In this document: in pieces, positions 1 through 28,596 of the stretch | How the letters are laid out: every line of letters starts with the position of its first letter | Numbering within the stretch: position 1 is the stretch's first letter | Origin: Sandarakinorhabdus sp. | GTDB lineage: Bacteria > Pseudomonadota > Alphaproteobacteria > Sphingomonadales > Sphingomonadaceae | NCBI GenBank assembly: GCA_020693225.1 | Contig: JAIMJL010000019.1 | Location: 1 to 38,742, forward strand | Length of the DNA stretch: 38,742 nt | Direction of reading: 5' to 3' | The notes under the pieces: model-generated | Told to the model about the DNA's origin: nothing | The model's input: only the letters and a program-made list of their open reading frames with translations | Databases searched by the model: none | Program-made: the position numbers and the translations under genes

Positions 1-3000
1 GGTTTTCACGAAATTGGCCAGCGCGAAGGCCGGGCCGGTTTGCGCCATCGGGACATCGGGCGAAACCAGCACCAGTTGCGTGTTGTCATACAGCGAGGCT
101 TTGCGGGCAACGCGGAAATGGTGGGTGAGGTTGGCGTCTACCATGGCGGAGAAGCCTTCGGTGTCGAGCGCGTTGCCCTCTTCGAACAGCTTGTCGGGCA
201 GCGGGGTGAAGGGGGTGGAGACGATGGTGGTGGGGTTGCCCCAGCTGCGGAAGGCGGAATCCATGGCGGTGTCCACGTCCCCCTCGCAAAGATGGAAGGC
301 GAGGCTGTCGGCCGGGAGATCGGCCAGCGCCTCGCGCAAGGGTGCCGCCCCTTCCGGCGATTTCACCATGATGACGACCTTGCCGGCGTGGCATTTCTCG
401 ACAAATTCGCGCGCCGCTTCGGCCAGATAATCGACCATATATTCGCCGATGATCCAGACGGTCTTGCCGCGCATCTGATCGAGACGCTCCTGCTTGGGGC
501 CGCCGAACAGCTCGCGTTCGGTGGTGGAGCGTTCCAGCGTGAGGCCGCCCGATGGCATGAAGGTTTCGCCGGAAACGGCGCGGTCTGCGAGGAAGAAGAC
601 GGTGGCCTGCGCGACTTCGCCTTCGGTTGGCATCTTGCCCAGATTGAGCAGCGAGAGAACGCCGCCGCCGACCTTTTTCGCCTCGGCGGCGATTTTCGCG
701 CGCGGCAGCCAGGGCTTGTCATCCGGCGGGGTGCGCATCAGCCAGCCGCCATCCTCACGGCGCTCGGCCCATTCCGGGCAATCGAGGAAATAGCCACCCA
801 GCCGCAGGCGCGCGACAAGGCGGCGGGAGATGGCCTCGGTGATCAGGAATCGGCCCCAGGTGCAGCTGTCGTCGCCTTCGCGAGCCGACGCGAGCGCGAG
901 ATCACGCAGTTCGCGCGGATTGTCGGTGTCGTGCGCCATGCGGGCGATATCGTTGCGGGCGAGACGGCCGAGGATGGCCTCGACGCGGACACCCCGGCGC
1001 ATCGCCTTGACGGTTGCGGCGTGGACGGCATTCAGGCGCTTGTTTTCGAGGATGAGACGCCCGCGCCGATCAAACAAGCCGGGCTTGCCGCCGAGGCCGG
1101 CGAGGCGATCGCCATCCACGGGCCCCGGGGCAATCGCATTGATCTGGATTTCCGGGCCGAGAAAGCGCGCCATGGATTCGACCATCGCGCGCTGGCCGGA
1201 TTTGGAGACGGCATAATCGGCGCGGTTGGGATAGGCGACGGCGAGATATTTCTCGCCGCCGAAGTAGCTGGAAACATTCAGGATATAGCCTGAGCCCTGT
1301 TTCTTCATCATCGGCACGACGCGGTGCATCAGGGCGAAGTTGGAGATCATGTTGGCGTCCAGCGTGCGCTGCCAGGCGGCCGGATCCATATCGACCACCA
1401 TCTCTTCGGCGCCGGAAATGCCGGCGTTGTTGATGAGATAATCGATGCGGCCGAACTGGCGGATGGTTTCATCGACGGCGCGGTTGAGCGAGGCGAAATC
1501 GGCGACATCGATATCGGCCATGGTTTGCACGCGGTGCTCGACGCCGGCGAAGCCGACATCCTCCAGCTCGCCGACAATGCGGGCGCGCATGGCGGCGAGC
1601 TCGGATTCGCGGCGGGCAACCAGCATGACCTTGGCACCGGCCAGCGCCAGCAGGCGTCCGACCTGGCCGCCGATGCCGGCCGAGCCGCCGGTGATGAGGG
1701 CGACCTTGCCGAGATGCAGGCCGGTGATGTTTTCGGAGAAGCCGACCATGGCGCGGCGGGCACCGGTGGCGTCGGCGATGGATTCGGGGAGGTAGAGGTT
1801 GATCTGCCGGATCTTGCGCTCTTTCAGCAGGATGCGGACCAGTTGTCCGGCGGTGAAGGGCAGGTTTTCCGGCTCGCTGTTCTGGTAGCGAATGATCTGG
1901 TGGCCCCATTCCAGCTGCTGGCGGCGACCGTGGGCCACATCGACGGCGGATTCGTCGCGCCAGATGCGCACCAGCTGCTCGATACCGGCGCGCAGGAAAT
2001 TGGCCCAGACATCGCCGGCGCCGTCGCTGGTGTTGGAGAGGAATACGAAGCGCGGGTCGCGCGGCAAGCCAACCTGCCGCCGCCAGTAGCGGCTGAGCGT
2101 GCGGGCGAGCGCGATCGCACCGCCAAGCTCGGCATCGACGAAACTGTCAACCGCCGTGTCGCTCGCATCAACCAGCGATCCGGCGAAATGGCCGACACCA
2201 TAATAGGGCAGGATGATGGCACCGGAGATCGGCAGGCCGCCTTGCGTCCACTTGTCCAGCGCATCGTCCATCATGCCATGATCGGCGCGATCGAAGCGGA
2301 CGACTTCGATTTTGTGCCCGGCAGGCAGATCGCCGAGCTGGGATTTGGCGGCCTTGACGCCGGACGCTGCGGTGAAGCCGAGCAGCACGGCGGCCCCGGC
2401 TTCGGCATGGACGCGGGCGATGGCGACGCCCTCCTCCACCTGATCGCCGGCAGCAACCAGCAGGGCCACGCCGGCACCGTCAATGGTGCGGCGCGAAGGG
2501 CGCGACTGGAAGGTGGTGCGGGATTCCTTCTTCACCGCCATGCCGTGGGTGACTTCGAAGTCATGGCCGTTGAAGGCGGCGGATTCGTCGGAGCCGAGGA
2601 ACACGCAGGTGTTGGCGATATCGGCCGGGGTTGGCAGGCTCTTGGCGGGGGCGGCCCCGCCGGTGCTGCGCTTCAGGCTCATGATGCCTTCGAAATGATC
2701 GGCGGTGCTGCCGGCGGGATCGCCGCGCAGATCATCCATCGCGGCGAACACGCTGCGGATGCGCTGGCTTTCGATCGGGCCGGGGAACAGCAGATTGACC
2801 CGGATGCCGCGATCGCCGAGCTCCAGCGCCAGTTCGCGCGACAGGGCGTTCATCGCGGCCTTTGGCACCACATAGGCGGTGCGGGCGTAATATTCGGTGC
2901 GCGAGAAGATGGTGGAGACGTTGATGATGGCGCTGCCCGGCTGCATCACCGGCGCGCAGGCGCGGATCATGTTCCAGGCGACTCCCAGGATGTTGCGCGC

Positions 3001-3441
3001 GGCATCGCCCACGGTTTCGCTGTCGGTTGAGCCTTCATCCTGCAGGGCTTTCAGATCGCCCTTGTTGAGCGGCAGGCGCTCCAGCGGCTGCTTCGGCCCG
3101 GCCGAGCCGGCGTTGTTGACGAGGATGTCCAGCCGGCCATGTCGGGCGAGGATCTGCGCGGCACCGGCGCGGACGGAGGCCGGATCGGCGCCATCCATCA
3201 CCACGGCAGACGCGCGCGAAGGATCGGCGCCGGTATCGGCGAGCGCGGCCTGCATGGCGCTTGTGATGCGCGCCTCGTTGCGGCCGGTGAACACGACGGT
3301 TGCCCCTTCGCGCAGATAGTGGCGGACGATTTCCTGGCCGAGATTGCCGGCCGCGCCGGTAACGAGTGCGATTTTGCCAGCGAGACGGCCGGAAACCGAT
3401 GCGCCGGCCTCGGCCTTGGCGATCGCCGTGGGTGCGTTCAT
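1..3441 (-). CDS. mcr: Bifunctional malonyl-CoA reductase (C-terminus cut by window edge)
   Basis: Reduces malonyl-CoA with NADPH to malonate semialdehyde and then to 3-hydroxypropionate. The frame is open for 1147 codons from ATG 3441 to the window edge. The family is about 1220 residues, so roughly 70 C-terminal residues are missing. Two short-chain dehydrogenase units are visible. The N-terminal unit has a TGAAGNLG nucleotide-binding motif at residues 28-35 and a YVVPK active site (Tyr190, Lys194). The C-terminal unit has TGGSAGIG at 584-591 and YAVSK (Tyr743, Lys747). In the Chloroflexus enzyme the C-terminal half makes malonate semialdehyde and the N-terminal half reduces it. An AGAGGG ribosome-binding site lies 9 bases before the ATG. 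The gene starts 14 bases after the propionyl-CoA synthase stop, so the two are co-transcribed. Identification rests on the fused double-SDR layout and this neighbour; I am confident of it. Confidence 0.93.
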   Translation of the reverse strand, partial: MNAPTAIAKAEAGASVSGRLAGKIALVTGAAGNLGQEIVRHYLREGATVVFTGRNEARITSAMQAALADTGADPSRASAVVMDGADPASVRAGAAQILARHGRLDILVNNAGSAGPKQPLERLPLNKGDLKALQDEGSTDSETVGDAARNILGVAWNMIRACAPVMQPGSAIINVSTIFSRTEYYARTAYVVPKAAMNALSRELALELGDRGIRVNLLFPGPIESQRIRSVFAAMDDLRGDPAGSTADHFEGIMSLKRSTGGAAPAKSLPTPADIANTCVFLGSDESAAFNGHDFEVTHGMAVKKESRTTFQSRPSRRTIDGAGVALLVAAGDQVEEGVAIARVHAEAGAAVLLGFTAASGVKAAKSQLGDLPAGHKIEVVRFDRADHGMMDDALDKWTQGGLPISGAIILPYYGVGHFAGSLVDASDTAVDSFVDAELGGAIALARTLSRYWRRQVGLPRDPRFVFLSNTSDGAGDVWANFLRAGIEQLVRIWRDESAVDVAHGRRQQLEWGHQIIRYQNSEPENLPFTAGQLVRILLKERKIRQINLYLPESIADATGARRAMVGFSENITGLHLGKVALITGGSAGIGGQVGRLLALAGAKVMLVARRESELAAMRARIVGELEDVGFAGVEHRVQTMADIDVADFASLNRAVDETIRQFGRIDYLINNAGISGAEEMVVDMDPAAWQRTLDANMISNFALMHRVVPMMKKQGSGYILNVSSYFGGEKYLAVAYPNRADYAVSKSGQRAMVESMARFLGPEIQINAIAPGPVDGDRLAGLGGKPGLFDRRGRLILENKRLNAVHAATVKAMRRGVRVEAILGRLARNDIARMAHDTDNPRELRDLALASAREGDDSCTWGRFLITEAISRRLVARLRLGGYFLDCPEWAERREDGGWLMRTPPDDKPWLPRAKIAAEAKKVGGGVLSLLNLGKMPTEGEVAQATVFFLADRAVSGETFMPSGGLTLERSTTERELFGGPKQERLDQMRGKTVWIIGEYMVDYLAEAAREFVEKCHAGKVVIMVKSPEGAAPLREALADLPADSLAFHLCEGDVDTAMDSAFRSWGNPTTIVSTPFTPLPDKLFEEGNALDTEGFSAMVDANLTHHFRVARKASLYDNTQLVLVSPDVPMAQTGPAFALANFVKT

Positions 3442-3455
3442 GGTTTTTGTCCCTC

Positions 3456-6400
3456 TCATTGTTCGCGCGCTGCGGCCCAGGCCTCGAGCAGCGCATCCTT
3501 GCCGCGCAGGCCGGTGGCTGGCAGCGCATGATTGACCACATAGGTTGCACCCACATGGCGGTTTTCCCACATCGCCTGGTGCGCTTCCGGCAGGCCTTCC
3601 CACGGTACCAGTGTTGGCTCGGTGACATCGAGCAGGCCGCCGGCGATCATGTCGTTCATGCGACTGACTTCATAGGCATTGCACAAATGGGTGCCGCGAA
3701 TTTCCGCCGTTGGCATCAGGATGCGGCGCTGCCGCGTCCATACCTGCGGCGCGTAGAAGGTGTAGCGCATGCCGGCCATGTCTTCGGCATAGATCACCCG
3801 ACCGGTGAACGGCTTGACCAGCGCGGTGGAGACGCCGAGCGTGTCTTGCGCGGCGCGTTCGATGACGAGATCGGGGTTACCGCGCGGATTGTCAGGCGAT
3901 CGCAGCAGCTTGCCGACGGCGGTTCCGAACGGCTTCAAGGTGCGATCTTGATAGTCGCGCACCGCCAGCCGGAAGGCTTCGATATCGTCGCGCGCGGCCG
4001 GCAGCCTTGGCATGGTGTCGGGCCACTGGAACAGCGCGCCTTCGCGGCGGCTGATATCTTCCAGGCTGACGATGCCGGCGACCGCGTCCTGCAGCCCCAG
4101 GCTCTGGATGAATTCGCGCTGGCCATCGGTGGTGGTGACGACCACGGTGCGGGCACCGATGGCGCGAGCGGCTTCGATGAGTTCGAGGCCGACGGTGTCC
4201 AGCAGCTCCTGCGAGCGCGGGCTGTAGTAAAGCAGCACGGCTTCACCGGCGCGGGCCTTGGCGCGGCGCAGCATCGCCTCGGCAGTGGTGCTTCCGGGCT
4301 TTCCCATGAAGCTGAAATGGTAGCCGGAAGACGCGCCATAGAAGGCGAGGATGCCATCTTGCTCCAGCAGCTGGAAGCTGCGCGGGAAGGCGGTTTCGCC
4401 GGCGTGGCTGACGGCATAGTCAGCAAGCCTGCCGCCGTTCAGCGCGCGATACTCGGCCAGTAGGCCCTCCCCTTCGGCTTCCCAGGCGGCCCATTCAGCC
4501 GCATTTTCCGGGACGGCGCGGAAAGCGGCGGCCCAGCGCGGATCGGTGCGATCCAAAGCCCCGACCGCGCCCTTTTGCGCCACGAACGCCGCGCGCGCGG
4601 CGCTGGAGACGAGGCCGGTGGCGGCAAGCCCGCTCTTGATGGCGGTTTTCAGCGCATCGAGGCCGGTGCCGGTGGCGGAGCCCTCCACGAAGATGGTCTT
4701 GCCGGGCGCGATTTCCAGCGTGGTGAACAGCGCGCGGACGACGGTGCCGAGGTTCAGGACATAGCTGCCGGCCTGCTCCAGCGTAAGATCGCCGGGAACG
4801 GGGTGCAGCTGCGGCGCCTGCACAGCAAGAAACTGCGCGTGGCTGCCGGTTTCGGTTTCATAGCCTTGAATGGCGAAATCGGCGAACATCGGATCGCGCC
4901 CGGCCATCGGGGAGAGCAGATCGGTGGTGCCGGAATAGACGGCGACCAGATCGCCAACCTTCAGCCGGCCTTCGGCTTTGGCTTCGGCACCAAGGGCGGC
5001 AATCAGGCCTACGCCGCCGGACCCGGTCACCTGCTGGTCACGTTCGTGATTGTCGAAGGGGGAGACGGGGATGCCGGTCAGCGCCCAGATGTCGTTGAAG
5101 TTCACTTCGGAGGTGAGCATGTAGACCAGCGCGTCGTTGCCGGCCGGCGTGTCTACGGGGACGATCAGCTCGCGCTCTGACTGCGCCGGTGGGCCGAAGC
5201 GCGGCGCGCCGGTATCAGGGTCGCGCGGGACGCCGAAGGCATATTGGTGCGACGGAATGGCGCTGATGCCGGGGAAGAATGGCGCGCCAACGGGGAGAAG
5301 ATCGCCGGCGGCTTCGAGGGCTTTGGCGCGAGAAGCCTGGTCGGCCTCGATGTGCAGGCCGTTGCGGCGGACGGGCAGCGGCGGGCTTTGTTTATCGAGG
5401 AACTGGCGGATCCCGGTTTTGCCGCCGTCCGGATCGATGACGGCTTCGGCGAAGACCTGTGCTTCGCGTTCGAGACCGGCGGGCATACCCTGCGTCCAGC
5501 CGGTGCGGATGGCATCGAGCGCGCGCGCGCCGGCCTTGCCGCGCCCGGCCCAATCGAGCTGACGCAGGATGCGTTGCAGGAAATCATCCTGCAGCACGGC
5601 ATCGAGATCCTGGGTCGCGGGCTTGTCCCATTCGGTGGTTTGCGCCCGGCGCGCGGCCCAGGCGCGGCCGAGCGGGCTCGCGTCGCCATGTTGCACAAAA
5701 GCGCGGACCAGGGCGTGCGCCTCGCTCAGGGCATCGCCAGAGCTCGACAGCGCATCCACCAGCGCGATTTCGTGCGCGGCTTCGCCATCGATGCTGCGGC
5801 CGCCGAGAATCAGGTCCAGCGCGTCGCGCAGGCCTTCTTCGCCGCGCCGGTCGGCCAGCAGGCGGGGGAGCCGCTGGGTGCCGCCATAGCCGGGCAGCAG
5901 GCGCAGGCGGATTTCCGGCTGGCCAAAGCGGGCGAACGGCTCGGCAATGCGATAGTGACAGGCAAGCGCGAACTCCATGCCGCCGCCCAGCGCCACGCCC
6001 TGGATCGCAGCGATGCAGGGCTTGCCCATCATCTCGATCTTGCGGAAGGCCAGCTGCGCATTGTTGGGCAGCACGCGGGCCTCTTCAGACGTGTTGATTT
6101 CATCGAGAAACTGGCGAATGTCGGCACCGGCCACGAAAGAGGCGGTGCCATCGCCGGTGAACACGACTGCCACCACATCGTCGCGATGCGACAGATGCTC
6201 GACGACGATGACCAGCTCGTCGATGGCGCGTTCGTTGAGCGCGTTGACCGGCGGGTTGGTGACATACACGGTTGCCACGCGTTTGCCGGGTGCGACCAGA
6301 TTGTACTGGATGCGGAAATAGCGGTAGCGTTCAAACAGCTGCTGCTCTTCGGACAGGCGCTGCTTGGCCTTCCACTCGGCTATCACCTTGCGCAGCGCGT

Positions 6401-8945
6401 CCAGGCTTTCCGGATTGCGCAGGGTGGAAACGTCGCCGAGGTCGCTATCCTCGACCAGCGCGCGCACCATGCGGCGGACATATTTGCCGCTGCGGGTTTC
6501 CGGGAAGGCGGATACTTCGAGGAAATCCTGCGGCACGGCGACCGCGCCCTTTTCTTGCCGCACCAACTCGGTGAGGCGGCGGCGATCGTCTTGCGTCAGT
6601 TTCTGCCCGGCGCTGGGCAACACGAAGGCGAGCGGAGTGAGGCCCTTTTCGCGGTGCGGCGCGCCGACGACGAGAACATTGCCAACCGGGGAGTCCGGAT
6701 CGAGCGCCTTGTCGCGCAGGATGGCGCCCTCGATTTCCTCGGTGCCCATGCGGTGGCCGGAGACGTTGATGACATCGTCGGAGCGGCCGTGCAGCGAAAA
6801 GGAGCCATCCGGATGCACGACCGCGAAATCGCCCTGGGTGTAGGCCCACTGGCCCTTCCAGCGGGTCCAGTAGCCTTCGCGCCAGCGGGTTGCGTCGCCG
6901 TTCCAGTGGGCGACAACTTTGCCACCTTCGGCGGAGAAGGTTGCACCGTCCCACACCGTTCGGGCGAGATAGGGATAGGGTGCGGCGATGACGATCTCGC
7001 CCTTTTCGCCAACCTCGGCCTCGCGCCAGGGGACGCCGGCTTCCCCGGAGCGGGCAAACAGGGCATCGGCACCCTGCCCTTCCATATCCTCCACCCGCAC
7101 ATCGCCGATGATCCACGGCAGCGGATAGGTGTGCGCGTCGGGTCGCAGCGCGAAATCGCCGTTGGCGTAGAAGTGCGTCCAGGCGATGCCGCCATGCTCG
7201 GTTGCCCAGTAGCTGTTGATGTACCAGGGCGTGATCTCTTTCATCCCGAAGGCCTGCACGGCGGGCGAAGTCGGCTCGGCGCAGAAGGTGGCGACCCGCA
7301 GCGAGGCCATATTGTAGGCTTGCAGATCGCGCAGGTTCTGCGGATCGGCCATGATGGCCTTCAGGAAGGTGACACCGGCCTTGAAGATGGTGACCTTGTG
7401 CCGCTCGATCATCGAGGAGAAACGCCCGGCGTGCGGGAAGGTGGGTGCGCCTTCGCCGAGGATGCTGGTGACCCGCGACGTAAGGGCTGCCGAAATCATG
7501 TAGCTCTGCCCGGTGATCCAGCCGGGATCGGCTACCACGAACATGACGTCTCCGGGCTGCGCATCGAAGGCGACCTTCATCGTGTGCGCGATGCCGGCGA
7601 CATAGCCGCCGTGGACATGCACGAGGCCCTTGGGCTTGCCGGTGGAGCCCGACGTGTAAATGAAGAACAGCGGGAACTCGGCATCAACCGGCGTGACCGG
7701 GGCGGCGGCCCAGATGGCGGCCACGAATTGCGCATCCGGCAGCGCATCGAGGGCGGCTTCATCGGGCAGGCCGGCGGCCTCCAGGATGGTTTCCAGCGCC
7801 GCATCGGTCAACGTGTCGCTCCAGCGATCGCGCGTCCGCCAGACGAGATCGGGCTGGGCGGCATGGCGGGCGACGATGACGGCTTCGACACGCGGCGGGG
7901 TGGAGACCAGGGCTTCGGCCGCGGCGATTCGGATTTTCGCGGCATCGGCGCCGGACAGCCCGGCGCGGCCGAGATCGCCCAGCGCCCGGCCGACGCCGCG
8001 CATCACATCGGAGCGTTCGACGGTGACTTCGCCGGCCAGGGTTTCGGCGATGGTGGCATCGATGGCGGTGCGGGTTTCGACATCGATGCCGAGCGTTTCA
8101 AGCTGTGCTGCCACGACCTGCCGGGCGACGGCGACAGGCACGTAATTGTCCAGCGCCGGATCGGTGTAAGCGGTTTTGAAGGGGATGATCTGGGCGTTGC
8201 GATAGCCGCCGTCGGCGGTGATCACGACGCGCGCGCCGGCATCGTGGATGCGATCGGACAGCGTCTTGTCGGAGAAACCGCCGAACACCGGCGTATAGAG
8301 GATTCCGAGGCGCTTGGCGGCTTCCGTCCAGAAGACCTGCTCCGGAATGTTGGGCATGTTCAGCGCGATGCGGTCACCCGTTTTCAGCCCAAGCGCGGCG
8401 AGGGCGACCGCGCATTTGGCCGATTCCTTCAGCAAGGCGCGGCGCGAAATGGGATAGCAATCAACCGGGCCACCGCGGCCGCCGTCGAGGCTCATGTCCC
8501 AGCGATCGCCTTCGAAGATGAAGGCCGCCTCGGCGCCATGGCCGGCCAGCACATGGCGATCGACCTCGTTGAAGGCGGCGTTGGTTTGCCCGCCTTCAAA
8601 CCATTTCCAGTGCGGCGGCTCATCGGCATTGAAGGCGCGCTTCCAGGGCTGGAAATCGGCCCCGAGATCGGCGGACACCGGCTCGGCGGTGCGGCTGTCA
8701 AAGCCCTGCCAGAGCTGGCTGGCCTCGTTGAAACTCAGCCAGGCGTGCCGATCGTCCAGCGGCACCAGCCAGTGCAGCGTGGCCTTGGCGATGGCACCAT
8801 GGAAGCCGCCCGGATCGGCGATGCAGGCATCGCGCATGGCCTGCCAATCGGCGCGCGTGCGCACCGGGTTGCTGGACGCAGCCGCGCGCGGCGAAATCGC
8901 TGCCGCTTGCGGCCCTTCTGGCACCCGATCCATTACCGCTTCCAT
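3456..8945 (-). CDS. pcs: Trifunctional propionyl-CoA synthase
   Basis: Converts 3-hydroxypropionate to propionyl-CoA using ATP, CoA and NADPH through 3-hydroxypropionyl-CoA and acryloyl-CoA. Three enzymes are fused (numbering from ATG 8957). An acyl-CoA synthetase covers about 1-870, with phosphate loop TSGSTGKPKG near 435 and the conserved adenylation lysine in TRSGKYVRR near 822. An enoyl-CoA hydratase covers about 890-1180, with GADIRQF near 944 and GVALGGGMEFALACHYR near 989. A medium-chain enoyl-CoA reductase follows from about 1230 to the end, with the nucleotide-binding stretch IFVEGSATGTG near 1425. The length of about 1830 residues matches Chloroflexus and Erythrobacter enzymes. Two in-frame ATGs compete: 8945 has GGGAG five bases upstream, whereas 8957 has no good ribosome-binding site, so I choose 8945 (the longer form adds MGDD). 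First gene of the pcs-mcr operon. Confidence 0.95.
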   Translation of the reverse strand: MEAVMDRVPEGPQAAAISPRAAASSNPVRTRADWQAMRDACIADPGGFHGAIAKATLHWLVPLDDRHAWLSFNEASQLWQGFDSRTAEPVSADLGADFQPWKRAFNADEPPHWKWFEGGQTNAAFNEVDRHVLAGHGAEAAFIFEGDRWDMSLDGGRGGPVDCYPISRRALLKESAKCAVALAALGLKTGDRIALNMPNIPEQVFWTEAAKRLGILYTPVFGGFSDKTLSDRIHDAGARVVITADGGYRNAQIIPFKTAYTDPALDNYVPVAVARQVVAAQLETLGIDVETRTAIDATIAETLAGEVTVERSDVMRGVGRALGDLGRAGLSGADAAKIRIAAAEALVSTPPRVEAVIVARHAAQPDLVWRTRDRWSDTLTDAALETILEAAGLPDEAALDALPDAQFVAAIWAAAPVTPVDAEFPLFFIYTSGSTGKPKGLVHVHGGYVAGIAHTMKVAFDAQPGDVMFVVADPGWITGQSYMISAALTSRVTSILGEGAPTFPHAGRFSSMIERHKVTIFKAGVTFLKAIMADPQNLRDLQAYNMASLRVATFCAEPTSPAVQAFGMKEITPWYINSYWATEHGGIAWTHFYANGDFALRPDAHTYPLPWIIGDVRVEDMEGQGADALFARSGEAGVPWREAEVGEKGEIVIAAPYPYLARTVWDGATFSAEGGKVVAHWNGDATRWREGYWTRWKGQWAYTQGDFAVVHPDGSFSLHGRSDDVINVSGHRMGTEEIEGAILRDKALDPDSPVGNVLVVGAPHREKGLTPLAFVLPSAGQKLTQDDRRRLTELVRQEKGAVAVPQDFLEVSAFPETRSGKYVRRMVRALVEDSDLGDVSTLRNPESLDALRKVIAEWKAKQRLSEEQQLFERYRYFRIQYNLVAPGKRVATVYVTNPPVNALNERAIDELVIVVEHLSHRDDVVAVVFTGDGTASFVAGADIRQFLDEINTSEEARVLPNNAQLAFRKIEMMGKPCIAAIQGVALGGGMEFALACHYRIAEPFARFGQPEIRLRLLPGYGGTQRLPRLLADRRGEEGLRDALDLILGGRSIDGEAAHEIALVDALSSSGDALSEAHALVRAFVQHGDASPLGRAWAARRAQTTEWDKPATQDLDAVLQDDFLQRILRQLDWAGRGKAGARALDAIRTGWTQGMPAGLEREAQVFAEAVIDPDGGKTGIRQFLDKQSPPLPVRRNGLHIEADQASRAKALEAAGDLLPVGAPFFPGISAIPSHQYAFGVPRDPDTGAPRFGPPAQSERELIVPVDTPAGNDALVYMLTSEVNFNDIWALTGIPVSPFDNHERDQQVTGSGGVGLIAALGAEAKAEGRLKVGDLVAVYSGTTDLLSPMAGRDPMFADFAIQGYETETGSHAQFLAVQAPQLHPVPGDLTLEQAGSYVLNLGTVVRALFTTLEIAPGKTIFVEGSATGTGLDALKTAIKSGLAATGLVSSAARAAFVAQKGAVGALDRTDPRWAAAFRAVPENAAEWAAWEAEGEGLLAEYRALNGGRLADYAVSHAGETAFPRSFQLLEQDGILAFYGASSGYHFSFMGKPGSTTAEAMLRRAKARAGEAVLLYYSPRSQELLDTVGLELIEAARAIGARTVVVTTTDGQREFIQSLGLQDAVAGIVSLEDISRREGALFQWPDTMPRLPAARDDIEAFRLAVRDYQDRTLKPFGTAVGKLLRSPDNPRGNPDLVIERAAQDTLGVSTALVKPFTGRVIYAEDMAGMRYTFYAPQVWTRQRRILMPTAEIRGTHLCNAYEVSRMNDMIAGGLLDVTEPTLVPWEGLPEAHQAMWENRHVGATYVVNHALPATGLRGKDALLEAWAAAREQ

Positions 8946-9263
8946 ATCGTCTCCCATTCTGCCAGCTTTTCCCGGCGGCCGCAGCCTTGCACAGCAGCCG
9001 CGGCAGGGAAAGCCGACAAATCCGTCGTGCCGGGCCAGTTACACGCGATTTCTATTAATGCAATAAAATAATTGTGTTTATCGCAATTTTATGACTTTCT
9101 TTTGTCAATTTTCCATACAAAATTGCAGAAATCGCCCTGCTAGACGCCAGGGTGCCGGGTGTGGAGCAGTCGCCGGCCCGGTTGACCATGCCGCTGCAAA
9201 GGCGGCAAGACCGCGCGATGATGACCACGGCAGCGTGGCCGCCAGTTTGAGAGGGTTCGAGGC
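8946..9263. promoter_or_regulatory. Divergent intergenic region with AT-rich core and nested inverted repeats
   Basis: This gene-free stretch separates the pcs-mcr operon from the serine hydrolase gene. Its centre (about 9045-9135) is strikingly AT-rich for this genome. It holds an outer perfect inverted repeat GCGATTTCT (9045-9053) / AGAAATCGC (9127-9135) and an inner one GCAATTTT (9083-9090) / AAAATTGC (9119-9126); the two right arms abut. A consensus -35 hexamer TTGACA reads on the minus strand at 9108-9103, inside the inner loop, pointing toward pcs; no convincing -10 box follows at 16-18 bases. I infer a regulated promoter for pcs-mcr. No regulator gene lies next to it. Confidence 0.5.
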
Positions 9264-10922: not shown

Positions 10923-11023
10923 AGCGAGTCTCGTTCTGATTGCATCAGAACGGCCGCTCTATCTTCCTGTTTTTCCGCAGGGGTTTCCGATCTGGTGATT
11001 CCACCAGATCGGAACATACTCTA
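10920..11023 (-). repeat. Double-hairpin interspersed repeat, copy A
   Basis: A 104-base element homologous, in reverse orientation, to 15529-15633. A 41-base run (10923-10963) is identical to the reverse complement of 15590-15630. It contains two hairpins: CGTTCTGAT-TGC-ATCAGAACG (10932-10952), and an 11-base stem CCGATCTGGTG / CACCAGATCGG with a four-base loop (10987-11012). The ends are TAGAG-like inverted termini. It overlaps the stop codons of both convergent flanking genes. It may also act as a bidirectional transcription terminator. Confidence 0.85.
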
Positions 11024-12199
11024 GGGAAAGGCCGGCATGATCCGTTTCATGAACTCGTCGAACATCGGCACGGTGAAGGCCGTGTCGCCGTGCGCGGGGG
11101 AATAGAGCATGCCCTTCTTGATCAGGCTGTTGCGGATCGGGGCGAGCTGGTTGACCTGTTTGCCCAGCTTGTCGGAAATGTCGCCGGAGCGGTGCGGCCC
11201 CGATCCCAGCTCGGCCATGGCGCGGACGTAGCGTTTCTCGGTTGGGGTGAGCCGATCGAAGCGGACGCGGAAGAAGCTGGCGTCCAGCTCGGCCAGTGCG
11301 GTGATGCTGGCATTTTCCACGTCGCGCGGGGAAATCGGCGAGCAGAATGCGAGATCCCAGGCATGTTTGCCCCATTCCTGCAGGAAATAGGGATAGCCCT
11401 GTGTTGCCCGGATGATGGCGCGGGTAGCCTCCGGCTCGATTGCTTCCTCCTCGCGCTCGATCGGCAGCACGATGGCGTTCCAGGCGGCGCCTTCGTCCAG
11501 CCTTGTGACCTGCACATATTCGAACAATCGCTCGGAATAGCTTTTGGCGCGGCCCATCTGGCCAAGCAGTTGCGGCAGGCCGGCGCCCATCATGGTGACC
11601 GGCAGGCCGGCCTGCGCGACCGCGTGCAGGGCGGCAATCAGCGCGCCCAATTCCGCCTCGCGGACATATTGCAGCTCATCGAGGAACAGCACGACGGCGG
11701 TATCGCGCTCTTTCGCCGCTTCGCCGACCGCCAGCAGCAGCTCGGCCAGATCGACCGAGAGATCGCCGGAATCGGCGACGCCCTTCTCTGGCTCGAAATC
11801 GAGGCTGACTTCGATGTCGGCATAGTGCAGCTTCAGCTTGGCGAAGCTGGCGAGCGCGCCGAGCGCCTTGCGAGCGCCGGATTTCGCCGTTTGCATGCGA
11901 TCAAGCTTCAGCAGGCAGGCGCGCAAGGGGGCAGCGAGAATGGCCGGCAGCGAGCGATCTTCGGGTGCCTCGATGCGCACGGCCTGCAAGCCCCGCCCTT
12001 CGGCTTCGGCGCGAATCTTGCCGAGCAGCACGGTTTTGCCGGAGCCGCGCAGGCCATAGAAGATGAAGCTGCGAGCCTGCCGCCCGGCGGCGATGCGATC
12101 GAGGGCGATTTCGGCCCGCTCGATCAGATCGTCACGCCCGGCAAGCTCCGGTGGCTGGTTGCCGGCCCCGGGGGCGAAGGGGTTGCGACGGGGGTCCAT
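11021..12199 (-). CDS. AAA+ (Orc/Cdc6-like) ATP-binding protein
   Basis: A 392-residue ATPase of unknown cellular role. A short Pro/Arg-rich N-terminus is followed by a P-loop GLRGSGKT at residues 49-56 and a Walker B VVLFLDELQYV near 170. A sensor-like MMGAGLPQL follows near 200. The C-terminal region (about 290-392), with RFDRLTPTEKRYVRAMAEL and GDISDKLGK, looks like a winged-helix domain. The architecture resembles archaeal-type Orc/Cdc6 or MalT/STAND-related ATPases found widely as lone genes in Actinobacteria and Alphaproteobacteria. No partner gene is adjacent. The TAG stop is supplied by the terminus of repeat copy A. It lies 56 bases downstream of the sugar dehydrogenase gene but has its own AT-rich upstream region. 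Confidence 0.85.
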   Translation of the reverse strand: MDPRRNPFAPGAGNQPPELAGRDDLIERAEIALDRIAAGRQARSFIFYGLRGSGKTVLLGKIRAEAEGRGLQAVRIEAPEDRSLPAILAAPLRACLLKLDRMQTAKSGARKALGALASFAKLKLHYADIEVSLDFEPEKGVADSGDLSVDLAELLLAVGEAAKERDTAVVLFLDELQYVREAELGALIAALHAVAQAGLPVTMMGAGLPQLLGQMGRAKSYSERLFEYVQVTRLDEGAAWNAIVLPIEREEEAIEPEATRAIIRATQGYPYFLQEWGKHAWDLAFCSPISPRDVENASITALAELDASFFRVRFDRLTPTEKRYVRAMAELGSGPHRSGDISDKLGKQVNQLAPIRNSLIKKGMLYSPAHGDTAFTVPMFDEFMKRIMPAFP

Positions 12200-12242
12200 A
12201 GCAAGCTTATCCCATATTATTTCCTACAGATAAACCTTGCTA
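12199..12242 (-). promoter_or_regulatory. Candidate promoter/operator of the AAA+ ATPase gene
   Basis: The 56-base spacer before the ATPase gene is AT-rich. On the minus strand it holds a TAATAT -10-like hexamer. The region is bracketed by a perfect seven-base inverted repeat, TAGCAAG (12199-12205) and CTTGCTA (12236-12242). One arm overlaps the start codon. Promoter or operator function is inferred. Confidence 0.3.
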
Positions 12243-12255
12243 ACTTTCCACCACA

Positions 12256-13404
12256 TCAGCCTGCCGGGCGCAGCCGGATGATCTTTCCTTCCGGCTCGTC
12301 GGTGAGCACATAGACCAGCCCGTCTGGCCCCTGCTGCACCTGCCGCACCCGCGCGCCGATTTCGATGCGCGTCTGCCGCGAAGGCTTGCCGTTGGCGCCC
12401 AGCCGCACAACGCGCACATCCTGGCTCATCAGGCCGCCGGCCAGCAGCGCGCCATCGAGCGCGGGGAGCGCGCGGCCGCGATAGACGGCGAGGCCGGACG
12501 GCGCGATCGACGGCGTCCACAGCGAAACCGGATCGCGCATGCCGGGGCGCGAGCGTTCGGAGGTGATCGGTTCGCCGGAATATTCGACGCTGTGGGTGAC
12601 CACCGGCCAGCCGTGATTGCCGCCGGAGGCCAGCTGGTTCAGCTCGTCGCCGCCGCGCGGGCCGTGTTCGGTGGCCCACACCACGCCGGTTGCCGGATCG
12701 CGCGCCAGCCCCTGGATGTTGCGGTGGCCGATGCTCCACACGCGGCGATCCCATCCCGAGGCCGGGTTAACGACGCCAGGATTGTCTTTCACCGGCGCGC
12801 CCTCCTGGGTGACACGCAGGACCTTGCCGAAAAACGCGGCCGGATTCTGCGCCTGGGTGCGGATCGGCTTGCCGTCGAGCTTGACGCTGGGGTTGCCGCC
12901 ATCGCCCACCGACAGCAGCAAGGTGCCATCGGGCAGCCAGAGCAGGCGCGAACCGAAATGCGCGCCGCCCCGCTTGGGCGTGGGGTTGCGGACCAATTCC
13001 TTGACCTCGGTCAGCATGTTGCCTGACAATTTGCCGCGTGACAGCGCCGTCATGTTGGCGTCTGCCGTGCCGACCGAGTGGGTGAAATAGACGAGGCCGT
13101 TGCGGGCGAAATCCGGATGCAGGCTGACATCGAGCAGGCCGCCCTGCCCCACGGCTGCGACCGGCGGCACGCCGTTCAGCGGCGGCCCGGCGCGGCCATC
13201 CTTGCCGAGGATGCGCATGCGCCCCGGCCGTTCGGTGACCAGCGCGCGGCCATCGGGCAGGAAGGCAATGCCCCAGGGGTGTTCGAGGCCGCTGGCCCAG
13301 ATCTCCCGGGCGACGCCCGGCTCGGCGGGAACCTCCCAGGGCACGACCGGTTGCGCCAGTGCCGGCATTGCCAGCAACCCGAATGCCAAGCCGATGAACC
13401 GCAA
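12256..13404 (-). CDS. PQQ-dependent aldose sugar dehydrogenase (Asd/YliI type), exported
   Basis: A 382-residue soluble glucose/sorbosone dehydrogenase-family beta-propeller that should oxidise aldose sugars in the periplasm with PQQ as cofactor. Typical blade motifs are visible: LEHPWGIAFLPDGRALVTER, GQGGLLDVSLHPDF, HFGSRLLWLPDGTLLLSVGDGG (shortened match), GHRNIQGLA and TEHGPRGGDELN. I take TTG at 13404 as the start: it is preceded by GGAGA with six bases between, and it places a signal peptide (RFIGLAFGLLAMPALAQ) at the N-terminus. The open frame continues upstream to 13842 but runs antisense through the metallopeptidase gene, so that extension is rejected. No PQQ biosynthesis genes are in the window. 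Confidence 0.88.
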   Translation of the reverse strand: MRFIGLAFGLLAMPALAQPVVPWEVPAEPGVAREIWASGLEHPWGIAFLPDGRALVTERPGRMRILGKDGRAGPPLNGVPPVAAVGQGGLLDVSLHPDFARNGLVYFTHSVGTADANMTALSRGKLSGNMLTEVKELVRNPTPKRGGAHFGSRLLWLPDGTLLLSVGDGGNPSVKLDGKPIRTQAQNPAAFFGKVLRVTQEGAPVKDNPGVVNPASGWDRRVWSIGHRNIQGLARDPATGVVWATEHGPRGGDELNQLASGGNHGWPVVTHSVEYSGEPITSERSRPGMRDPVSLWTPSIAPSGLAVYRGRALPALDGALLAGGLMSQDVRVVRLGANGKPSRQTRIEIGARVRQVQQGPDGLVYVLTDEPEGKIIRLRPAG

Positions 13405-15762: not shown

Positions 15763-16587
15763 TCAATCGATGCGATTGAAGTGGGTCGTTTCCAGTTTCG
15801 GAAGCCTGTCGCCGGCCCAGACAATGGTTTCCGTCATCGATTTTCGATCCTTGGCAACGGCATAGACGCGCGTCGAAACCGGAGCTCCATTCTTGCCCAA
15901 GGTCATCACCAGCGTGTTCGGTGCAGGCTGGCGCAGGGCAACGGTATCGATGAAATCCATCGTGCCGCTGATGGGCACGGGAACACCATCAAGCGCAGCG
16001 GTCGATTCCGCATGCCTGCTGGAACCATCAGGGGCGACAATTTCAACCAGCGATGTCCATTTATCATCCGGCGACACGCGGAACGTCATGGTGACCCGTT
16101 GCGGGCGCTCGCTCTCTGGAATGCGTGAAACGTCCAGCGACCAGCTTCCGACCAGCGGCAGCGGGCTGGATGCGGGGGCGGTGGGTGCCGGCGCGACTGC
16201 GGTGGGCTGGGTGGAGGGCGCTGCCGCGAGCATCAGTCCGAGTGCGGCCACAGGTATTGCGACAAGCATGACAATCATTCCTTTCGATCGATTCAACCCG
16301 ACGGTTTCGGGCTGCCCTGAGCTGTTGCCCGTGGGTGTTGGTGACGAAAGATCGATATTCTTGTCACAGAATTTTTGGGCCTCCAGCAGGCGCGCCAATT
16401 CGCGGCTGCTGCCGATGCCTGTCTTGCGGCGGGCGGCGCGCAAACGCTCGTTGATCGAGGTTTCCGATCGGCCAAGACGCGTCGCGATGGTCTTGGCCGT
16501 ATGGCCGGCCGCCAACAGCCGCAGAACTTCCAGTTCGCGGTCCGTCAGGTCTGAAAACGAGCCGAAGAAGTGTTCCGGGGCTGACAT
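15763..16587 (-). CDS. Membrane-tethered LuxR-type HTH regulator with extracytoplasmic domain
   Basis: A 274-residue protein with an unusual order. A LuxR/GerE helix-turn-helix sits at the very N-terminus (about residues 12-70: LTDRELEVLRLLAAGHTAKTIA). A linker and one membrane segment (about 105-130, MIVMLVAIPVAALGLMLAAA) follow, then a C-terminal domain of about 140 residues predicted outside the cytoplasm. That domain contains SWSLDVSRIPESERPQRVTM and YAVAKDRKSMTETIVWAGD. The layout suggests sensing of an envelope signal with DNA binding at the membrane, as in ToxR-like one-component systems; this is inference. Target genes are unknown. It lies 96 bases downstream of scpA on the same strand and probably has its own promoter. 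Confidence 0.75.
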   Translation of the reverse strand: MSAPEHFFGSFSDLTDRELEVLRLLAAGHTAKTIATRLGRSETSINERLRAARRKTGIGSSRELARLLEAQKFCDKNIDLSSPTPTGNSSGQPETVGLNRSKGMIVMLVAIPVAALGLMLAAAPSTQPTAVAPAPTAPASSPLPLVGSWSLDVSRIPESERPQRVTMTFRVSPDDKWTSLVEIVAPDGSSRHAESTAALDGVPVPISGTMDFIDTVALRQPAPNTLVMTLGKNGAPVSTRVYAVAKDRKSMTETIVWAGDRLPKLETTHFNRID

Positions 16588-16683
16588 GCCCTGTTCTCAC
16601 CACAGGCACCGTGGCGCGTCCATCCCAATTTATTTGGGCAGTCGGCAACCCGAGAGTTGCTCCATTGTCCGCTGCACGCGGCC

Positions 16684-17457
16684 CTATGTGCGAGCGCGGA
16701 GCAGGATCGGGCCGAAGGCGCTTGCCTGGCTCACGTCGGCACGCCCGGTGCGGGCGAGTTCGAGCATGGCGACGAAGCTGGAGGCCAGCGCCGAGCGGGC
16801 GAGTTGCGGGTTTGGGGTGTCGGGCAGGAATTTGCGCAGGTCGGTCCAGTCGAGGGCCTGGCCGATGAGCGAGGAGAGGCGTTCGAGGGCTTCTTCCAGC
16901 GTGACCACCGGGCCGCGGGCGTGCGGGGTCCAGGGGGTGGCGCGGGCGCGGCCGTGGATGGCGCCATAGGCGGCGAGCAGATCATAGAGGCTGGCTTCGT
17001 AGCGGCTGCTGCGGAGCTGGCGGAGGCCTTCGGGGGCACCACGGCGGAGCACGTCGCGGCCGAGCAGGTCGCGGGCGAAAAGTTTGCTCGCGGCGTCTCG
17101 CATGGCTTCGAGCCGTTGCAGGCGCCAGCGCAGCCGTTGGGCGAGATCGTTGGGATCGGGTTCGGGGGCTTCGTCTTGCGGCAGCAGCAGGCCGGATTTC
17201 AAATAGGCGAGCCAGGCCGCCATCACCAGATAGTCGGCGGCGATTTCCAGCTTCAGCAGCCGGGCTTCGGCGATGAAAGCGAGATATTGATCGACCAGCG
17301 GCAGGATGGGGATGGCGGCGAGGTCGATTTTTTGTGCGCGGGCGAGCGAGAGCAGGAGATCCAGCGGGCCTTCCCAGCTTTCGAAGCTGACAACCAGGGT
17401 GTCGGCCGGTCTTTCGGCCGGTGCCGGCTGGCGCGGTGGGTCTTCCTCGAAATCCAC
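16684..17457 (-). CDS. scpA: Segregation and condensation protein A
   Basis: The kleisin subunit that bridges the SMC ATPase in bacterial chromosome condensation. The diagnostic N-terminal block SFESWEGPLDLLLSLARAQKIDL and the following DQYLAFIAEARLLKLEIAADYLVMAAWLAYLKS (shown across residues 30-90) are present, with the C-terminal winged-helix region ending near RPILLRART-like residues. The length, 257 residues, is normal. It begins two bases after the nagZ stop, so it is translationally linked to nagZ. The scpB gene that usually follows in Alphaproteobacteria is absent; a LuxR-type gene is in its place. Confidence 0.93.
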   Translation of the reverse strand: MDFEEDPPRQPAPAERPADTLVVSFESWEGPLDLLLSLARAQKIDLAAIPILPLVDQYLAFIAEARLLKLEIAADYLVMAAWLAYLKSGLLLPQDEAPEPDPNDLAQRLRWRLQRLEAMRDAASKLFARDLLGRDVLRRGAPEGLRQLRSSRYEASLYDLLAAYGAIHGRARATPWTPHARGPVVTLEEALERLSSLIGQALDWTDLRKFLPDTPNPQLARSALASSFVAMLELARTGRADVSQASAFGPILLRART

Positions 17458-17459
17458 GG

Positions 17460-18482
17460 TCAGGCGTGTGCCGCTGCCAGCAGCGCGTCGCGCTTTTCAG
17501 CGAAGCCTTGCGCGTCGCCGGTTGGGGTGTCGGCCCAGGCCATGGCCGCTTCGAGGCGGGCAAGGGCGCGCTCGGAAATGGGCGCCATGGCGTCGGCAAT
17601 TGCGGCCATTTCGGCATAGTCGCCGGAGCAATGCAGGGCGATGTCGCAGCCGGCGGCGATCACGCCGGTGGCGCGGCCGGCCATGCTGTTGCCGCCGGGC
17701 TGGTGGGTGAGCGCTTGCATGCCGAGATCATCCGACATCAGCAGGCCATCGAAGCCGCAGCGTTTGCGGATGATTTCGGCGATCACGAATGGCGAGAGGG
17801 TGGCGCAGCGATCCTCGTCCCAGGCGGTGTAGATGATGTGCGCGGTCATCGCCATTGGAGCGTCGGACAGCCTTGCGAAGGGGGCGAGATCGGCTTCGAG
17901 CTGTTCGGCGGGGGCGCTGACCACAGGGAGCGCCAGATGCGAATCCAGCGTGGCGCGACCGTGGCCGGGGATATGTTTTACAACGCCGACCACGCCGCCG
18001 GCCTGCAAGCCATCGAGGGTGGCACGGCCAAGGGCGGCCACCAGCAGCGGGTCTTCCCCGAAGGCGCGATCGCCGATGACGGCGTGCATGCCTTCTGCTG
18101 CGACATCGAGCAGCGGCAGGCAATCAACCGTGATGCCGAGATCGGCGAGGGTGAGCGCGATGGCGCGGGCGTTGGCGCGGGCGGCGGCCATGGCGGTGAG
18201 CGGGGCTTTTGCATAGGCTTCGCCGAAAAGCTGGCCGGGGGGAAAGCTGGGCCAGTGCGGCGGTTGCAGGCGGGCGACACGACCGCCTTCCTGATCGATC
18301 AGGATGGCAACACGCTCTGTGCGGGCCAAGGCCTTGAGCGATGCGGTGAGCGCGCGGACTTGCGACGGATCGACGATGTTGCGCTTGAAGAGGATGTAGC
18401 CGGCGGGCTTGCAGGCGGTGAACAGCGCCTGTTCGCGCGGGGTGAGAGCGGGGCCTTCCAGCCCGAAGAAGACAGGGATCAT
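17460..18482 (-). CDS. nagZ: Beta-N-acetylhexosaminidase
   Basis: A 340-residue glycoside hydrolase family 3 enzyme that removes N-acetylglucosamine from anhydromuropeptides in the cytoplasm during peptidoglycan recycling. The family motif KHIPGHG is at residues 169-175, with the substrate-binding ILIDQEGGRVARL segment near 95. The start is ATG 18482 (MIPVFFGLEG), preceded by AAAGGGA; the open frame upstream to 18656 overlaps the MAPEG gene in another frame and lacks homologous character. It lies 40 bases after the MAPEG gene and two bases before scpA. Confidence 0.94.
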   Translation of the reverse strand: MIPVFFGLEGPALTPREQALFTACKPAGYILFKRNIVDPSQVRALTASLKALARTERVAILIDQEGGRVARLQPPHWPSFPPGQLFGEAYAKAPLTAMAAARANARAIALTLADLGITVDCLPLLDVAAEGMHAVIGDRAFGEDPLLVAALGRATLDGLQAGGVVGVVKHIPGHGRATLDSHLALPVVSAPAEQLEADLAPFARLSDAPMAMTAHIIYTAWDEDRCATLSPFVIAEIIRKRCGFDGLLMSDDLGMQALTHQPGGNSMAGRATGVIAAGCDIALHCSGDYAEMAAIADAMAPISERALARLEAAMAWADTPTGDAQGFAEKRDALLAAAHA

Positions 18483-18522
18483 GCGGTCCCTTTGCGCAGG
18501 CGGGCGAGGCTTTGCAACTGGA

Positions 18523-18906
18523 TCAGCGGGAGAGGCCCGACCACAGCACGGCGAAGGCGAGGATGCCGATCGGCCCCCAAGTGGCGACCATGCCGACCAC
18601 CCGCCAATTGTTGGGGGCCGGCAGGGCCATGCCGATCGGGTGCGCGATGCGGCCAAGCACCAGCCAGGCGGCCATGGCGACGACCAGCGCGCCGGTGCCC
18701 AGGGCCTGCTCGGCGAGAAACAGCAGGATCAGGCCGATGGGGGCATATTCCGCGCAATTGGCCTGCGCCCGGATGCGGGACTGCAATTCGGCATTGCCGC
18801 CATCGCCCATGGAAATGCGATCGGCGCGGCGAATCAGTGTGACTCGGACGCTGAGAACCAGTAACAAAAGGCCGAGCAATCCGGCGGCGATCATCGTGGC
18901 CTGCAT
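18523..18906 (-). CDS. MAPEG-family membrane protein
   Basis: A 127-residue integral membrane protein with four hydrophobic segments: about 5-22, 58-75 (APIGLILLFLAEQAL), 77-92 and 105-124. The segment ELQSRIRAQANCAEYAPIGL matches the glutathione-binding helix of the MAPEG family (membrane-associated proteins in eicosanoid and glutathione metabolism). Bacterial members may act as glutathione transferases; activity here is inferred. A strong ribosome-binding site AGGAGG precedes ATG 18906. First gene of the minus-strand run MAPEG-nagZ-scpA. Confidence 0.88.
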   Translation of the reverse strand: MQATMIAAGLLGLLLLVLSVRVTLIRRADRISMGDGGNAELQSRIRAQANCAEYAPIGLILLFLAEQALGTGALVVAMAAWLVLGRIAHPIGMALPAPNNWRVVGMVATWGPIGILAFAVLWSGLSR

Positions 18907-19304: not shown

Positions 19305-20384
19305 GTGAATAACCTGACACTCGCCCGACGCTCGCCGCCAAAGCCCATCATTGCGCTGGACGCAATGGGGGGAGATGTTGGCCCGGAGGTGGTGATTGCC
19401 GGCGCCGAGCTGGCGCGCGAACGCTACCCCGAACTGCGGTTCCAGCTTTATGGGCGAGAGGCCGATATTCGCGCGGCACTTGCCTCTGCACCGCGACTGG
19501 CCGCCGAGGCCGAGATTGTCCCGGTGGACGGGGTTGTGCTGGGCAGCGACAAGCCCTCGCAGGCGATTCGGCGGGCGAAATCCACATCGATGGGGCTGGC
19601 AGTCGAGGCGGTGAAATCCGGCAGGGCTTCGGCCTGTGTTTCGGCCGGCAACACCGGCGCTCTGATGGCGATGGCGAAGCTTGCGCTGCGCACGATGGAG
19701 GGGATCCACCGGCCGGCGCTGGTGGCGCTGATGCCGACATTGAAGAATGACGCCGTGGTGCTCGACCTGGGAGCAAACACCGAGTGTGACGCGGAAAATC
19801 TGGTGCAGTTTGCCGTGATGGGGGCAGCTTTCGCGCGCACGGTGTTGGGGCTTGATCGGCCTAAAGTGGCGATCCTGAATATCGGCGAAGAGGATATGAA
19901 GGGCACCGAATCCATCCGCGATGCGGCGCTTTTGCTGCGCGAGGCGGCGGGCGATCTGCCGATGCATTTCCTCGGCAACGTGGAAGGCAATGGTATTGCC
20001 GAGGGCAATATCGATGTGATCGTGACCGATGGCTTTTCCGGCAATATCGCGCTGAAAACCGCCGAGGGAACCGCGCGGCTGGTGACCGGGCTTCTGGCCA
20101 ACGCCTATCGCGCCTCCTGGTTCACCAAGCTTGGCTACCTGTTTTCGCGCTCCGCCTTGCGGGCGCTGCGGGATCAGCTGGACCCTAACAACCACAATGG
20201 CGCGGTGTTCCTGGGGCTGAACGGCGTGGTGGTGAAAAGCCATGGTGGCGCCAATGTGAAGGGCTTTGCCAACGCCATTGGCGTGGCCCACGATCTGATT
20301 GCGCAGGACATCAACAGCCGTATTCAGGATGATCTGGCGAACTTTGCCGCACACCGGTCGCTTCCGATGACGCTGGCCCGATAG
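19305..20384 (+). CDS. plsX: Phosphate acyltransferase PlsX
   Basis: Makes acyl-phosphate from acyl-ACP for the first step of phosphatidic acid synthesis. The family signature [17 protein letters not shown] is at residues 15-31. [12 protein letters not shown] near 108, [17 protein letters not shown] near 155 and [13 protein letters not shown] near 245 are further hallmarks. The 359-residue length fits. The start is GTG 19305 with a weak ribosome-binding site; no ATG lies suitably nearby. It sits 69 bases after rpmF and eight bases before fabH. Confidence 0.96.
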
Positions 20385-20392
20385 GCTCTAAT

Positions 20393-21352: not shown

Positions 21353-21461
21353 AGATGTTGCGCGTGCAGGGCGCTGCGATTTTGACAAGCGGCGGGCCAA
21401 ATTCCGGCTTCCTTCCAGCCGGATACGGGGTTAGCTTGCGTTTCTGACAGGGAGGGAGGCT

Positions 21462-21779: not shown

Positions 21780-21792
21780 TGCTGGCCCGCTG

Positions 21793-25152: not shown

Positions 25153-25180
25153 TTGGCGCAAGGGTGAGTGATACGCGTTG

Positions 25181-28568: not shown

Positions 28569-28596
28569 TGCCCGCATTCGCTGAGGCTGTTCGCTG

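Follow-up and report, generated by a model that had tools for sequence, protein, structure and literature searches.

Propionyl-CoA synthase (PCS) and malonyl-CoA reductase (MCR) are the two hallmark enzymes of the 3-hydroxypropionate bi-cycle of Chloroflexus. Key enzymes of a partial bi-cycle occur in the phototrophs Porphyrobacter sp. ULC335 and Erythrobacter sp. NAP1, likewise without a full fixation pathway, and the genes of the pathway rise by day in ULC335, according to the accessible part of that study (PMC10674011). Here we analyzed a contig of Sandarakinorhabdus sp. (GCA_020693225.1, JAIMJL010000019.1), 38,742 nucleotides long and referred to as the window, which carries a PCS gene followed by an MCR gene. 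In the genomes surveyed, this gene pair is found almost only in bacteria carrying a type-II photosynthetic reaction centre. As the probable explanation, we favor that the pair provides a light-supported, CO2-using linear route for the photoheterotrophic growth of aerobic anoxygenic phototrophs, and not a closed autotrophic cycle.

The window comprises contig C43 in full, from an assembly of 2.63 Mb (98% complete, 134 contigs). The original prediction, made from the letters of the DNA, had described an alphaproteobacterial operon encoding a trifunctional fusion of acetyl-CoA synthetase, enoyl-CoA hydratase and enoyl-CoA reductase (ACS-ECH-ECR), with a fusion of two short-chain dehydrogenase/reductase (SDR) proteins 14 bases downstream (Table 1). 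The alphaproteobacterial source holds, and the assignment of PCS was borne out. The open frame contains the Pfam domains ACAS_N, AMP-binding, AMP-binding_C, ECH_1 and ADH_zinc_N in this order, as in an ACS-ECH-ECR fusion of about 1800 residues. It matches PDB chain 6eqo, listed as an acetyl-CoA synthetase and presumably the PCS of Erythrobacter sp. NAP1, with 2811 bits over residues 33-1831, far beyond chance, and the crotonyl-CoA carboxylase/reductase chain 4gi2 aligns to residues 1218-1550. The NAP1 enzyme (L159) has the same three fused domains at full length and is 68% identical to the window PCS, and the enzyme of Chloroflexus islandicus is 60% identical. In the PCS tree, the window PCS belongs to a set of 19 rows that includes NAP1 (SH-aLRT support, a Shimodaira–Hasegawa-like likelihood ratio test, of 100; no bootstrap, root unknown). 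It sits on a different branch of this set, nearer by path to sequences from Alphaproteobacterium AAP81b, Novosphingobium, Glacieibacterium and Sandarakinorhabdus than to NAP1.

For MCR, the predicted identity and the 14-base gap stood, but the gene is incomplete. Its frame starts with an ATG at 3441 and continues to the first base of the window, so that the contig end cuts the C-terminus, unlike chains 8hi4 and 8hjw, which are double-SDR proteins of full length. When a full-length relative served as query, no piece of the rest of MCR turned up elsewhere in the assembly. The protein matches 8hi4 (1051 bits, residues 18-1147) and 8hjw (1014 bits, residues 16-1147), and its two halves match 6k8v (residues 10-565) and 6k8s (residues 555-1147). 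We take 6k8s to be from Porphyrobacter dokdonensis and the other three chains from Chloroflexota relatives. Pfam found two SDR stretches, and Ser-Tyr-Lys motifs are present in both fused halves; the double-SDR fusion and the YxxxK motifs are common to the window MCR and the structurally characterized enzymes. The family placement of MCR comes from comparison with PDB structures, and that of PCS from the tree as well.

The motif residues checked in both proteins are intact, so that neither condition by which the original prediction would have been refuted, loss of active-site residues or a place outside the characterized clades, was observed (for MCR, the latter by PDB comparison). The ligase domain of PCS contains the motif YTSGSTGKPKG at residue 434, and K825 lies within ETRSGK. 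We checked 11 PCS positions, seven in the ligase domain (G437, K441, K443, E587, D710, R725, K825), two in the hydratase domain (E995, E1015) and two in the reductase domain, with catalytic roles that we assume from general family knowledge and not from the PCS literature. Seven MCR positions were also checked, Y190, K194, S176 and N109 in the N-terminal half, and Y743, K747 and S724 in the C-terminal half. All were invariant in the relatives covering them, the hydratase glutamates included, in two sets of loci with some genomes in common (up to 40 and up to 86 loci for PCS, up to 36 and up to 70 for MCR). By sequence, PCS and MCR are predicted to be further members of known families, and a further copy of a known gene pair.

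To describe the occurrence of the pair, 397 genomes of the window's taxonomic family were surveyed, with PCS counted at full length or in large pieces. PCS was present in 41 genomes, and MCR follows it in 38 of these, the window included; the pair is conserved. In 37 cases MCR is on the PCS contig, and in G256 PCS is split over two contigs. In the remaining three genomes (G298, G231, G267) the PCS contig stops inside the gene or within 160 bases. Among named genomes, 400 relatives were counted, which need not all be PCS, and the best 80 loci were analyzed; MCR lies within 300 bases of the PCS match in 66 of them. Among the other 14, six contigs stop in PCS or at most 250 bases after it, and the remaining eight are seven Chloroflexota loci and one of Aneurinibacillus danicus. 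Unlike the window, the seven Chloroflexota loci have no MCR after PCS; contigs L207 and L198 stop right after PCS and about 1.1 kb after it, respectively. Candidatus Oscillochloris fontis (L202) has a PCS 60% identical to that of the window, in contrast to the absence of the pathway reported for Oscillochloris in the accessible part of PMC5826079. The contig of the Gram-positive Aneurinibacillus danicus (L204, 10,870 bases) carries a PCS 58% identical, with no adjoining MCR and no pufL/M match; contamination or a different use is possible. Besides accA, few conserved flanking genes were found, and the pair occupies different sites in different genera.

The co-occurrence with phototrophy was examined by searching for pufL/M, the genes of the type-II photosynthetic reaction centre, with PF00124. 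In 14 control genomes, a PF00124 match was found only in Synechococcus. The window's genome itself, for which the original prediction had suggested this search, contains two full matches (C67:14061-15718). In the family, 76 of the 397 genomes carry pufL/M, including 38 of the 41 PCS genomes as against 38 of the 356 others (Fisher p 3e-28). No match was obtained in the remaining three PCS genomes, G022 (67% complete), G190 (88%) and G267 (76%). Because the genomes are related, the test was stratified by genus: within the seven genera with and without PCS the association persists (p 4.5e-6), and when genera are counted instead of genomes, pufL/M is present in 11 of the 12 with PCS (p 9e-6), neither test being fully tree-aware. 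Six genomes of g7 (G006, G100, G162, G211, G314, G376) have four Photo_RC matches each, which looks like two pufLM sets.

The association extends to other groups. Among 309 genomes from the family of Piscinibacter sp. MQ-18 (Burkholderiales), seven have PCS (E 1e-150) and 49 have pufL/M, with six of the seven PCS genomes pufL/M-positive (p 7e-5). From the 80 named loci, 50 were tested. In 29 of them the title lay outside Sphingomonadales or the locus was chosen as uncertain; the other 21, mostly with sphingomonad titles, come from genomes that are not among the 397. Reaction-centre genes are present in 46 of the 50, including Burkholderiales (5/5), Gemmatimonadota (3/3) and Chloroflexota (7/7), with L199 counted as positive on a fragment only. 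The Burkholderiales counts overlap, because G400-G402 occur in both the named and the Piscinibacter sets, and the figure of 46 applies to PCS close to the query, because the 80 loci are the closest ones.

Such a pattern could reflect shared inheritance or joint transfer of the PCS and pufL/M genes with no functional link. PCS and pufL/M are indeed 56-122 kb apart in five of the 11 genomes with both on one contig, but in the other six the distance exceeds 300 kb, even on a circular contig, and the association persists in seven mixed genera, a second class and other phyla. The trees of PCS and MCR, whose main groups agree, bear on this as well. G000 and G250, of the same genus and both carrying pufL/M, fall in different groups, and a tree uniting their MCRs was rejected (approximately unbiased (AU) test, p 0.0009). 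That these MCRs are not sisters suggests separate acquisition or old losses. The Gemmatimonadota PCS sequences stand at three places in the PCS tree. We consider inheritance without a functional link unlikely.

A second line of evidence for the favored route, in which the pair works on acetyl-CoA with the support of light, comes from accA, encoding the alpha subunit of acetyl-CoA carboxylase. This gene is next after MCR in several genomes, including L042 (G250, of the window's genus). It lies behind MCR in 30 of the 80 named loci (L131-L210), separated from it by -4 to 60 bases, and directly behind MCR in L042, L046, L049, L057 and L112 too. A PF03255 search covered 74 genomes, 41 with PCS and 33 without it from the same genera; for the 30 named loci, a second accA was checked only in genomes that are also part of this search. 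Two full accA copies were found in four genomes, all PCS carriers (G250, G260, G382, G173). PCS-less genomes have one full copy in 32 of 33 cases, with none found in G389 (66% complete), and none was found in the PCS genome G298 (71% complete). The linked accA is the sole copy found in G030, G113, G219 and G256, and in the incomplete G022; since it is the sole copy in four genomes of g31, it can probably do the ordinary job too.

In a tree of 85 AccA sequences, one clade (support 97/95) of 35 rows comprises 34 linked copies and the G022 copy, which lies just behind an MCR end. The second accA that G250, G260 and G382 each possess is not part of this clade. Of the linked copies, two fall outside it, that of G173 on a long branch and that of G072 as sister to the free copy of G140, so that the G072 copy is probably the ordinary accA of its genome. 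A lipase-like gene, named by eye, lies between MCR and accA in G072. Aerophototrophica crusticola, listed as Rhodospirillaceae, belongs to the linked clade, and the three genes thus seem to move together. The position of the linked copies behind MCR and their own clade indicate that these relatives encode the supply of malonyl-CoA together with the pair.

This arrangement bears on two further explanations of the pair. It might allow cells to consume or detoxify 3-hydroxypropionate or acrylate from outside, or supply propionyl-CoA for odd-chain lipids or polyhydroxyalkanoate. PCS by itself converts 3-hydroxypropionate to propionyl-CoA and encloses a toxic intermediate, which in the NAP1 enzyme was reportedly described in a 2018 paper. 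However, neither MCR nor accA is needed for external 3-hydroxypropionate, and MCR accompanies PCS at all loci examined where the contig permits, outside Chloroflexota and Aneurinibacillus, often with accA. A role in dimethylsulfoniopropionate (DMSP) or acrylate metabolism also does not predict pufL/M. We regard this use as quite unlikely. Alternatively, the pair might be mainly a redox or NADPH sink that shields light-exposed aerobic cells, with carbon gain secondary. Three NADPH are consumed per turn, and the close co-occurrence with phototrophy fits such a role, but accA beside MCR, like the genes for the mutase and the carboxylase, indicates carbon use, and oxygen is already available to aerobic cells as a sink. 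A predominant sink function therefore appears improbable.

Next, the window's genome was examined for the remaining steps of the favored linear route. In the window, as the original prediction had noted, no further bi-cycle gene is present among the 29 ORFs put to Pfam (out of 130 open reading frames of at least 120 residues, mostly overlapping others). Elsewhere in the genome, a methylmalonyl-CoA mutase on C57 (1193 bits) is above its cut-off, and a PccB-like carboxyltransferase on C97 scored 718 bits to a related subfamily, under its cut-off of 999. With accA also seen, most steps of a linear route to succinyl-CoA have candidate genes. Within the family, 39 of the 41 genomes with PCS have the mutase, with no match in G219 (99% complete) and G267 (76%). 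The search for a malyl-CoA lyase gave a weaker result: the sole HpcH/HpaI lyase match is a contig-end fragment, with malyl-CoA lyases as its closest relatives (about 50 bits). Of the nine CoA-transferase family III genes in the genome, eight were scanned, and all of these are below every curated NCBIfam cut-off, a collection from which a mesaconyl-CoA C1-C4 transferase model is perhaps absent.

These results were compared with what a complete autotrophic bi-cycle would require. PCS, MCR, the mutase and the PccB-like carboxylase are all present, and the nine CoA-transferase genes and the lyase fragment leave room for a second cycle. In the accessible part of their study, Garritano et al. claim complete bi-cycle gene sets, together with predicted photosynthesis, for Burkholderiales metagenome-assembled genomes (MAGs), and complete sets linked to inorganic electron donors for two Gemmatimonadota MAGs (PMC9802188). 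However, a weakly similar fragment is all that a 98% complete genome offers as lyase, and the scanned transferases fall short of the curated cut-offs. Unlike in Chloroflexus, the second-cycle genes were not found intact (mesaconyl-CoA hydratases not being searched for). Aerobic anoxygenic phototrophs are in general described as incapable of autotrophy, with Dinoroseobacter shibae named as the exception, in the available text of PMC10674011. The doubt about autotrophy in the original prediction holds, and a complete bi-cycle in this organism is very unlikely.

For the light-supported linear route, we propose that acetyl-CoA and CO2 would be converted to malonyl-CoA by acetyl-CoA carboxylase, malonyl-CoA to 3-hydroxypropionate by MCR with 2 NADPH, and 3-hydroxypropionate to propionyl-CoA by PCS with ATP and NADPH. 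Propionyl-CoA carboxylase and methylmalonyl-CoA mutase would then use a second CO2 to form succinyl-CoA. Light would give ATP and spare respiration, and the tricarboxylic acid (TCA) cycle would be refilled from acetyl units, with CO2 uptake and NADPH use. We infer the direction of flux, the light dependence and the purpose of the route from genome comparison, beside the observed identities, operon, intact motifs, co-occurrence with the reaction centre and accA link in relatives. The physiological role had been left open in the original prediction, and the comparative data now favor a light-linked conversion of acetyl-CoA to propionyl-CoA.

The pair might also replace the glyoxylate shunt in growth on acetate, since the route leads from acetyl-CoA to succinyl-CoA, like the ethylmalonyl-CoA pathway. 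However, canonical isocitrate lyase is present on C38 of the window's genome (751 bits, cut-off 562) and in eight other PCS genomes among the matches listed; only canonical matches in two stretches were used, because the E 1e-20 cut splits a second ICL-family type with matches near 1e-21. A simple replacement of the shunt was rejected for the window's genome, and as a general role it is extremely improbable.

Several observations weigh against the favored light-supported route. The same isocitrate lyase means that anaplerosis by the route is not forced. Half of the pufL/M genomes of the family (38 of 76) lack PCS, which makes PCS optional for them. PCS occurs without pufL/M in G693 of the Piscinibacter set and in four named genomes, a Steroidobacteraceae MAG of 2.0 Mb (L180), Aneurinibacillus danicus (L204), a Novosphingobium MAG (L140) and a Sphingomonas MAG (L147). 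The window's genome shows one accA only, on another contig and in the ordinary clade with the free copies of its genus. G219 has PCS, MCR and accA yet no methylmalonyl-CoA mutase match, which suggests that succinyl-CoA is not the end point everywhere and that propionyl-CoA goes elsewhere. Regulation of PpsR type was tried with a negative result. The motif TGT-N12-ACA, which we take to be the PpsR-type consensus, is absent from the 450 bases that precede the window's PCS, and is not enriched upstream of PCS over shuffled sequences (2 of 38 loci, 2.04 expected). In Microcystis blooms, bi-cycle marker genes but no propionyl-CoA carboxylase were found in aerobic anoxygenic phototrophs, to which an incomplete bi-cycle was assigned, according to the accessible part of PMC11089705.

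The layout of the window is summarized in Table 1. Upstream of PCS, the genes plsX, fabH and a ParA-like ATPase gene lie at 19305..22934, 10-14 kb away. In genus g21, six loci have counterparts of these genes behind MCR, so that the pair has possibly changed its position around a single chromosomal site. A tripartite efflux cluster of four genes (OEP, HlyD, ABC ATPase, MacB/FtsX permease) occupies 25178..29820. Long open frames without a Pfam match are present at 10940..12313 and 15893..18842; several overlap and are possibly not genes. Joining the window to C57, which carries the sole accA about 1 kb from its end, was rejected because no MCR piece matches there. The gene upstream of that accA reads by eye as a tRNA methyltransferase, which is also against joining.

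Table 1. Features of the PCS-MCR locus in the window, with strand and basis of assignment.
Feature	Coordinates	Strand	Basis or remark
Propionyl-CoA synthase (PCS), trifunctional ACS-ECH-ECR fusion, 1833 aa	3456..8957	-	open frame, Pfam, 6eqo, tree
3-Hydroxypropionate:CoA ligase (acetyl-CoA-synthetase type) domain of PCS, ~aa 102-858	6384..8654	-	ACAS_N, AMP-binding, AMP-binding_C
3-Hydroxypropionyl-CoA dehydratase (enoyl-CoA hydratase) domain of PCS, ~aa 893-1150	5508..6281	-	ECH_1, 107 bits
Acrylyl-CoA reductase (medium-chain dehydrogenase, ECR) domain of PCS, ~aa 1218-1830	3468..5306	-	ADH_zinc_N, 4gi2
14-base gap, PCS stop to MCR start codon	3442..3455	.	direct reading
Malonyl-CoA reductase (MCR), fusion of two SDR halves, first 1147 aa, truncated at the contig end	1..3441	-	
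N-terminal SDR half of MCR, aa 1-554, putative malonate semialdehyde reduction	1780..3441	-	6k8v
C-terminal SDR half of MCR, aa 555-1147, incomplete, putative malonyl-CoA reduction	1..1779	-	6k8s
PCS upstream region	8958..9263	.	divergent plus-strand serine-hydrolase (beta-lactamase family) gene

Parts of the link between these genes and phototrophs are stated in the accessible portions of PMC9802188, PMC10674011 and PMC11089705. The ULC335 study, in its available text, concerns one strain and its transcriptome (PMC10674011), whereas the present analysis is a survey of hundreds of genomes and includes the accA link. In a literature search that covered few subscription papers, we found no description of a PCS-MCR-accA operon or of a survey of PCS against pufL/M, and we do not claim that the association is unpublished.

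To our knowledge, the enzyme route of light-stimulated CO2 uptake is not settled in most aerobic anoxygenic phototrophs. Such uptake has been reported for these bacteria in the accessible part of PMC12999727. That the PCS-MCR pair is nearly confined, across several phyla, to genomes carrying a type-II reaction centre singles out one operon for this question, and the pattern is a specific, testable link of the operon to photoheterotrophy. Judging from the accA link in relatives, the module seems to begin at acetyl-CoA, which points to co-assimilation rather than the mere use of 3-hydroxypropionate. It is conceivable, though somewhat short of probable, that PCS and MCR, often with their own accA, form a mobile, dedicated carbon module of type-II photoheterotrophy, in which the MCR-linked accA encodes a carboxyltransferase subunit specialized for supplying MCR. 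If so, the operon would have been transferred between classes and phyla, and light energy would be spent on two carboxylations that lead from acetyl-CoA to succinyl-CoA.

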